A stretch of DNA of 64,000 nt, from contig JAAFGT010000016.1 of the NCBI GenBank assembly GCA_010365215.1, positions 6,349 through 70,348 of the forward strand, in the 5' to 3' direction. The position numbers and the translations under genes were made by a program. Below the pieces are notes generated by a model. The model was not told the origin of the DNA. It was given only the letters and a program-made list of their open reading frames with translations, and did no database searches. This DNA comes from Acidipila sp. GTDB taxonomy: Bacteria > Acidobacteriota > Terriglobia > Acidiferrales > UBA7541. This document shows, piece by piece, positions 36,208-37,868 of the stretch. Positions within the stretch are counted from its first letter, which is position 1, and the number at the start of each line of letters is the position of its first letter.

Positions 36208-36244
36208 ACGCTGCGCTCGTGCGGTGTGTTCCAGTCGAGCATTT

Positions 36245-36292
36245 GTCATTCCCCTGCGCTGAGCTACGCGCAGGGAGGAGCGAAGCGAGGAG
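36245..36292. repeat. Dispersed GTCATTCC repeat forming the hisS leader
   Basis: GTCATTCC (36245) is followed by an 8-bp perfect hairpin, CCCTGCGC (36252-36259) with GCGCAGGG (36268-36275), then GGAGCGAAGCGAGGAGTCT, the end of the repeat family. Its GAGGAG at 36287-36292 is the Shine-Dalgarno of hisS. Confidence 0.75.
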
Positions 36293-36299
36293 TCTGCTT

Positions 36300-37868
36300 T
36301 TGGCACAGCAAGGAAAATTTCAGGCAATAAAAGGCGTCCGCGACATCCTCCCGCCGGAATCCGCCTTGTGGAATCGCGTCGAACAGGCCGCCCGCGACGT
36401 CTTCGCCACGTATGGCTTCGCCGAGATTCGCCTGCCAGCGTTTGAAGCAACTCAGGTATTTGAACGTTCACTCGGCCTCAATACCGATGTCGTCTCGAAG
36501 GAGATGTATACATTTGAGGACCACGATCTACAGTTTTTAGAATGGTTGCGTGCCGAGGTCGTCGCGCGAGCCAGGACGGCTGCATCGGAGAAAGACAAAG
36601 GTGCTCTTATTGCGCGCCTCAACACGTTCTTGATCCAGACCAGAGAACAGATAAAAAACGGGATGATGCCGCAGACAGCGCCTAATGCGATCGCCTTGAC
36701 GCGGTTAGAATGCGATCTGAATTTCTTTGCAGCAGTGTCGGACAGGACGCCTCGCGAAGAAATCGAGAGCATGGCGCAAAACGTTCGGGACACAGTGGAG
36801 GATATCCAGTTCGGTGTCAGCGTTACCCTTCGTCCAGAGGCGACAGCTTCGGTCGCTCGGGCATACATCGAGCACGGGATGCACACACTGCCCGGCGACG
36901 TGAAGCTCTACTACATGGGCCCGATGTTCCGCCGCGAGCGCCCGCAGAAGGGACGCTACCGCCAGTTCTACCAGATCGGCGCGGAAGTTCTCGGCCAGTC
37001 GGACAATCCCGGTATTGATGCCGAAGTCATTGAGATGCTTCTCGCGTTCCTCGATCTCAGCGGTCTCACCGAGCGCAAGGTTTACGTCAACTCCATCGGC
37101 TGCCGCGAATGCCGGCCGAAATACGTCGAGCTGCTGCGCGGCGAGCTGCAAAAAGTGAAGGACCAGCTCGGCGCGGACAGCCAGCGCCGCATCGACACCA
37201 ATCCGCTGCGCGTCCTGGATTCAAAACTGCCCGAAGAACAGCCGCTCATTGAAACTCTTCCGCGCATCGCCGAGCATCTTTGCGAAGATTGCCGCAAACA
37301 TTACGCCGCGCTGAAGGAGCAACTGAAACTGCGCGGCATTGTCTATGAAGAAAACTGGCGACTGGTCCGCGGCCTCGACTACTACATGCGCACCACGTTT
37401 GAAATCACCGCGCCGGGTCTGGGCTCGCAGAACGCCGTCTGCGGCGGCGGGCGTTACGACGGCCTTGTCGAGCTTCTTGGCGGCCCGCCCACCAAAGGCA
37501 TCGGCTTCGCGCTTGGCACTGACCGCCTGATCCTTGCGCTGCAGGAAGCAGGGAAGGGAGAGGCCAAGCCGCAGCTCGACGTTTACGTCGCCTGGCTCGG
37601 CGCCGCGGCGTATCCCATGGCCGTGCGCGTCGCTCGCACTCTGCGGGGCGCTGGCTTTGCCGTGGAGTTGCCGCACGAGGAAATGAAATTCAAAAAATCC
37701 CTGGGCCTGGCGGATCGCCTCGGCGCTCGATATGCCGTAATTCTTGGCGACGACGAAGTCGCCGCGAGCACTTGCACGGTCAAGCGCCTGGCGGATGCCC
37801 ACCAGGAGAAAATCGCGGAGGCGGCTCTAGTGGAGCATTTGCGTCGGCATTCGTCCGAGCTTTTGTAG
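36300..37868 (+). CDS. hisS: Histidyl-tRNA synthetase with 98-residue insertion
   Basis: Charges tRNA-His. From TTG 36300 (GAGGAG 7 nt upstream) it has 522 residues, about 100 more than usual. Class II motif 1 region (KGVRDILPPE, 11-20), motif 2 (VTLRPEATAS, 175-184, then FRRERPQKGRYRQFYQ), the histidine-A loop (LVRGLDYYMRTTFEI) and motif 3 (GIGFALGTDRL) are all present, then an anticodon domain. Between TFEDHD (71-76) and VTLRPE an extra segment, residues 77-174 (36528-36821), interrupts a loop that normally has only a few residues. It is in frame and uses AT-richer codons. The TAG stop falls in another dispersed repeat. Confidence 0.93.
   Translation: MAQQGKFQAIKGVRDILPPESALWNRVEQAARDVFATYGFAEIRLPAFEATQVFERSLGLNTDVVSKEMYTFEDHDLQFLEWLRAEVVARARTAASEKDKGALIARLNTFLIQTREQIKNGMMPQTAPNAIALTRLECDLNFFAAVSDRTPREEIESMAQNVRDTVEDIQFGVSVTLRPEATASVARAYIEHGMHTLPGDVKLYYMGPMFRRERPQKGRYRQFYQIGAEVLGQSDNPGIDAEVIEMLLAFLDLSGLTERKVYVNSIGCRECRPKYVELLRGELQKVKDQLGADSQRRIDTNPLRVLDSKLPEEQPLIETLPRIAEHLCEDCRKHYAALKEQLKLRGIVYEENWRLVRGLDYYMRTTFEITAPGLGSQNAVCGGGRYDGLVELLGGPPTKGIGFALGTDRLILALQEAGKGEAKPQLDVYVAWLGAAAYPMAVRVARTLRGAGFAVELPHEEMKFKKSLGLADRLGARYAVILGDDEVAASTCTVKRLADAHQEKIAEAALVEHLRRHSSELL

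Follow-up and report, generated by a model that had tools for sequence, protein, structure and literature searches.

A predicted helical domain before motif 2 of histidyl-tRNA synthetase marks a probable order-wide exchange site in Acidobacteriota

The window, the whole 64,000-nucleotide stretch of DNA analysed here, derives from an Acidobacteriota genome (4.1 Mb in 91 contigs) with its closest named relatives among soil MAGs labelled Terriglobia or plain ‘Acidobacteria’. It contains a hisS gene with an additional segment in front of motif 2. The gene and the parts of this segment are located as follows:

36300–37868, plus strand: hisS, histidyl-tRNA synthetase with insert, 522 residues, TTG start (NCBIfam TIGR00442, 448 bits; HisRS matches in the PDB)
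36507–36521, plus strand: hairpin strand 1, residues 70–74, upstream border of the insert (AlphaFold2 model, DSSP)
36528–36821, plus strand: insert, residues 77–174, assigned to the family of L-type domains (alignments; leave-one-out HMM, E = 1.4e-9)
36531–36578, plus strand: predicted insert helix 1, residues 78–93, containing the conserved L..LR (AlphaFold2 model, DSSP; conservation)
36588–36656, plus strand: predicted insert helix 2, residues 97–119, with conserved hydrophobic positions 107, 110, 111, 114, and 118 (model; conservation)
36660–36686, plus strand: G.(I/M)P.T..N, residues 121–129, turn and start of helix 3, the best-conserved motif of the domain (conservation)
36678–36734, plus strand: predicted insert helix 3, residues 127–145 (AlphaFold2 model, DSSP)
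36753–36803, plus strand: predicted insert helix 4, residues 152–168 (AlphaFold2 model, DSSP)
36816–36830, plus strand: hairpin strand 2, residues 173–177, running into LRPEATA (AlphaFold2 model, DSSP)

Apart from the insert, the enzyme is, as judged from its sequence, a normal class IIa histidyl-tRNA synthetase (HisRS), with charging of tRNA-His as its predicted role. Its TIGR00442 score (hisS equivalog) lies well above the cut-off of 286.75 bits, Pfam matches are to tRNA-synt_His and HGTP_anticodon, and a fold search retrieves HisRS (E = 2.6e-41). The translation carries the class II motifs, the HisRS signatures LRPE.TA, RGLDYY, and GGGRYDGL, and the anticodon domain, the same catalytic and anticodon-binding architecture with all motifs as in bacterial HisRS (TIGR00442; E. 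coli 1KMM/1HTT, T. thermophilus 1ADJ/4RDX). The frame is open, with zero stops, and all catalytic motifs are kept, as the initial annotation had stated. Assignment as HisZ, the regulatory subunit of ATP phosphoribosyltransferase, was rejected, with a TIGR00443 score of 145.9 bits against a cut-off of 271.65 and the anticodon domain present. The hisS leader and TTG start (36244–36303) sit within a short sequence, GGAGCGAAGCGAGGAGTCTGCTTTTGG, which seems to be the source of the ribosome-binding GAGGAG of hisS and whose end has partial copies of 26 and 24 nt, at 92%, elsewhere in the genome.

The in-frame insert splits a β-hairpin, leaving EMYTFEDHD on one side and VTLRPEATAS on the other. Alignment of E. 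coli HisRS to the window enzyme falls into two blocks, 6–75 and 172–515, with almost nothing between, which confirms the ~98-residue insertion before motif 2 first noticed at residues 77–174. Strand 2 of the hairpin leads into LRPEATA, which we take to line the histidine pocket, as in class II HisRS. Known HisRS structures have a short hairpin, whereas enzymes of this order carry up to about 115 extra residues there. In an AlphaFold2 model of the whole enzyme with 47 relatives (mean pLDDT 91.8), four insert helices lie between the two hairpin strands, and the same four helices are predicted for the insert by itself (pLDDT 86.7). Long inserts are predicted as a four-helix bundle (pLDDT ~79–93). 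The models thus agree with the earlier description of a mainly helical insert, and they depict it as a genuine folded domain adjoining the active site.

Two overlapping sets, 60 relatives and 88 genomes of the order, yielded a HisRS in nearly every case. Loop length was measured from EMYTF to LRPE and classed as short (S, 8–9 residues), medium (M, 15–60), or long (L, 70–125). In the tree set of 77 HisRS from within the order, the loop is short in 17, medium in 22, and long in 38. All seven outgroup HisRS of the class are short-looped, as are the HisRS compared from other phyla. Among the matches listed for a wider sample of the class, nearly all loops are short, with medium loops in G184 and G219 (family f11), as judged from match coordinates. 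Because loops outside it are nearly all short, strong variation of this loop is in essence confined to one order.

Within this order, 53 HisRS, the window enzyme included, bear inserts of 30–125 residues at exactly the same position and all in frame, which excludes an assembly artefact or chimera, a concern raised in the initial annotation. A single foreign acquisition by the window genome, as that annotation had implied, was also rejected, since the insert is an order-wide trait. What stands of the proposal is local recombination, with the window insert as one allele of a hypervariable site that is repeatedly exchanged across the order. The competing thought, an old clade trait with matching codon use, was correct as to the clade trait, but within the clade the insert is gained, lost, and swapped.

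Several HisRS genes of these genomes are unusual in other respects. Two hisS-like second copies were left out of the tree: in G010 (contig C46), the N-terminal part of L220 is abruptly fused to unrelated sequence after GRYRF, probably reflecting a chimeric MAG contig, and in G050 (contig C81), L210 is an N-terminal HisRS fragment that runs into transposase-like sequence (IS630-like, by eye), with an intact second HisRS in the genome. In genus g7, neither protein nor Pfam model detects a HisRS in G006 or G018; completeness of G006 is 92%, tRNA-His is present in it, and the gap may reflect a missing contig or replacement by a very divergent enzyme. Further, extra inserts of 8–29 residues occur at other loops of L154, L155, L157 (after residue ~258), L158, L159, and L162, some of them resembling translated short repeats.

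The long inserts are just 14–26% identical to the window insert. Leave-one-out profiles, from which each insert and its near kin were left out, recover 37 of the 39 long inserts above all 1000 shuffles, the window insert among them at the E-value given above. On this profile evidence, the long inserts (70–125 residues) constitute one homologous family. Conservation is concentrated at hydrophobic positions with helix-like spacing, in L..LR of helix 1, and in the G.IP.T..N turn before helix 3, where N129 is kept in 31/39, G121 in 24/39, and P124 in 23/38 long inserts. Outside the hydrophobic core and the turn motif, which are retained, the sequence of the domain varies almost freely.

Searches for a relative or an origin of the insert returned nothing significant. 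Pfam and NCBIfam give no meaningful family match, PDB sequences contain no relative, and fold searches of PDB and BFVD yield generic helical bundles only, none with E ≤ 0.001. A phage or viral homologue was sought for a subset of inserts and none was found. Across 247 genomes of the phylum, the insert profile gives only weak matches, read as an MlaD-like protein, coiled coils, and other non-HisRS proteins. Both a known domain and a viral origin were rejected on these Pfam, PDB, BFVD, phage, and genome searches. The window genome contains no second copy of the insert. A literature search, with most subscription journals outside its coverage, retrieved no paper on such a HisRS domain.

The history of the insert is almost detached from that of the enzyme body. 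A quick-search tree of the body, with the loop removed, groups genera, and length class switches at least 30 times on it; for L, 12 switches are forced by well-supported branches alone. Body identity reaches at least 82% in 141 pairs, and 127 of these have different inserts. Cores that are 92% identical occur with inserts only 15–20% identical, as in G016 and G027 (body 92%, insert 15%). Conversely, G016 and G088, which belong to different genera, share 68% identity in the body and 49% in the insert. AU tests on the body data, for pairs picked post hoc, reject a clade of G016 and G088 (p = 0.0005) and one of G012 and G077 (p = 0.0003). For 36 long inserts, insert and body similarity correlate with a Spearman coefficient of 0.11, compared with 0.72 for a 98-column control segment of the core. 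Moreover, only 13 of 33 inserts have their nearest match within their own genus (9.1 expected at random), as against 33/33 for the control segment. In this comparison, which used one genome per species, alleles at the insert locus are common to several species and decoupled from the gene tree, as would be expected of a locus under diversifying or balancing selection.

One exchange is captured directly. G073 and G062 share a near-identical 43-residue insert with a dS of 0.15, compared with 1.43 in the body. Their identity is 0.87–0.97 from about −90 to +145 nt of the loop start and 0.63–0.73 further upstream, which outlines an exchanged stretch of about 250 nt. The initial annotation had proposed that a block was replaced by recombination with an insert-bearing donor; this tract demonstrates such replacement among relatives, and a corresponding event is probable for the window genome. 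The annotation had also described AT-richer codons that seem to spread slightly into the flanks. This fits a dip in synonymous identity where the two inserts of a pair differ, to 0.65–0.82 of expectation over 20 codons upstream and 10 codons downstream of the site, although part of it (10–20 codons upstream, 0.72) is present also in pairs with equal inserts.

Pairs with inserts of the same type have whole-insert dN/dS values of 0.10–0.33, from few pairs, as dS is saturated in most others. By this sequence measure, same-type inserts are clearly constrained by purifying selection, which is looser than in the body. Codon composition differs as well: GC3 is lower in the insert than in the body in 53/53 enzymes (means 0.56 and 0.73), and in the window hisS it is 0.63 in the insert and 0.72 in the core. 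Because the shift occurs in every one of these enzymes, AT-rich codons go with the site throughout this order and do not indicate a recent foreign donor, contrary to the initial reading. The excess of rare codons listed there has the right direction but is weak, with TTA, CTA, ATA, and AGA together making up 4/97 insert and 2/418 core codons (Fisher p = 0.013), CTA itself lying outside the interval tested.

AspRS, ThrRS, and SerRS from these genomes show no comparable variation. The neighbouring AspRS forms one continuous match of near-constant length across the order, contig breaks aside, with split matches in two class-level genomes; the ThrRS match is ~1695 nt in nearly all family members, and SerRS length is nearly constant. 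Whichever insert class a genome has (short, medium, or long), its tRNA-His keeps G-1, C73, and a near-invariant acceptor stem. In the enzyme body, no residue tracks the short or long insert class beyond within-genus permutation, and compensating changes in the body were rejected accordingly. Taken together, the near-constant synthetases, the near-invariant tRNA, and the lack of tracking residues characterize the insert as a plug-in module that, of the four synthetases compared, is specific for HisRS and needs no visible compensation.

Long-insert homology, decoupling from the body, the exchange tract, purifying selection, and HisRS specificity combine to make this position a domain-swap hot spot in an essential enzyme. 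We are highly confident that, in this order, the HisRS hairpin preceding motif 2 serves as an allelic cassette site. It holds the four-helix domain (70–125 residues), various shorter inserts (15–60), or none (8–9 residues), and alleles replace one another between species and between genera by recombination over short stretches of hisS, with no matching change in the rest of the enzyme. What maintains the diversity is a more delicate matter. We infer, at not quite even chances, a selective agent that binds HisRS near the active site. The domain may then be exposed to solvent and serve as a cover or decoy at the side of the active site; candidate agents would include an inhibitor (small molecule or peptide) produced by competitors, an enzyme-modifying toxin, or a phage protein. 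Under diversifying or frequency-dependent selection, rare forms would escape the agent and swapping would thereby be rewarded. A gene linked to the insert was sought as a possible agent, and none was found. Cassette site and selective agent, taken as a whole, form the best explanation, one that we judge about as likely to be right as wrong. The boldest version is an exchangeable antigen-like shield beside the histidine pocket, engaged in an order-wide arms race with a HisRS-targeting antibiotic, toxin, or phage protein; we offer it tentatively, as a possibility with the balance tilted against it.

The main rival is drift in a permissive loop. On this view the hairpin tip tolerates any insert, and inserts drift, grow, decay, and swap by homologous recombination in the flanks, with little selection on their sequence. 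Lengths that take many values between 8 and 125, heterogeneous medium inserts, one of which resembles a translated short repeat, and the small inserts at a few other HisRS loops all agree with this reading, as does the lower GC3 of all inserts, which weak codon selection would predict. Together with high recombination, a loop of this kind could yield part of the pattern without any agent. However, it accounts for length scatter and composition, not jointly for fold, constraint, and decoupling: same-type inserts show the low dN/dS range given above, a single fold and turn motif recur in 37/39 long inserts, the insert is almost wholly decoupled from the gene tree, and AspRS, ThrRS, SerRS, and almost all other HisRS at the same site behave otherwise. 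We regard it as rather unlikely to be the full explanation.

The other alternatives assign the insert a partner, a substrate, or a life of its own. A regulatory domain that docks a lineage-specific protein or ligand and tunes HisRS, comparable to some insertions in eukaryotic synthetases, would suit the predicted fold beside the histidine pocket and the purifying selection between close pairs. Yet close relatives lack the insert with no visible compensation, alleles turn over faster than species diverge, and the conserved positions belong mostly to core and turn, making this role improbable. Motif 2 handles the tRNA acceptor end, and an insert near it in the catalytic domain might contact tRNA-His and co-evolve with it, as the initial annotation had considered; G-1, C73, and the acceptor stem are nearly constant whatever the insert length, and we hold this role to be very improbable. 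Finally, a selfish element (intein remnant, RNA intron, or palindromic element) invading the site could produce the exact position, gain and loss, and interspecies spread. Against it, the inserts are always in frame and translated, with constraint at the protein level. An intein was rejected in agreement with the initial annotation, the insert having no NCBIfam match, no Pfam match above its cut-off, and neither splicing blocks nor an endonuclease domain; an RNA intron was rejected for lack of conserved RNA structure (z = −0.15) and of an Rfam match. Frame, constraint, and the missing intein, RNA, and dispersed-copy signs refute the standard forms of such an element, and we give the idea hardly any credence.

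We thus return to the exchange site, which combines features of known systems in an unfamiliar way. Insertion domains of class II synthetases, such as the HisRS insertion domain and INS of ProRS, are likewise extra folded domains within the catalytic domain. They lie between motifs 2 and 3 and are fixed in their lineages. In contrast, the insert described here lies between motifs 1 and 2, its presence varies among close species, and its sequence is nearly free. Mosaic housekeeping alleles, as in penicillin-binding proteins, and the recognition domains of type I restriction HsdS are systems in which blocks are exchanged and diversity is kept. The HisRS site resembles them in local block exchange within an otherwise vertically inherited gene and in diversity across species, but here the gene encodes an aminoacyl-tRNA synthetase and what is exchanged is a folded domain that can also be absent.

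Synthetases are the textbook case of housekeeping enzymes that evolve slowly. Because the window insert turns out to be a single allele at a site of exchange spanning the whole order, the finding gains in interest over its first description. A folded but optional domain beside the active site, almost free in sequence and passed between genera, indicates that HisRS in soil is under strong selection that has gone unrecognised. Such a domain may offer a way towards a natural inhibitor or toxin of HisRS, should one exist, with dozens of natural alleles to compare. If the domain does act as a shield, HisRS would be an unrecognised natural antibacterial target, and the exchangeable domain a new way to protect an essential enzyme.
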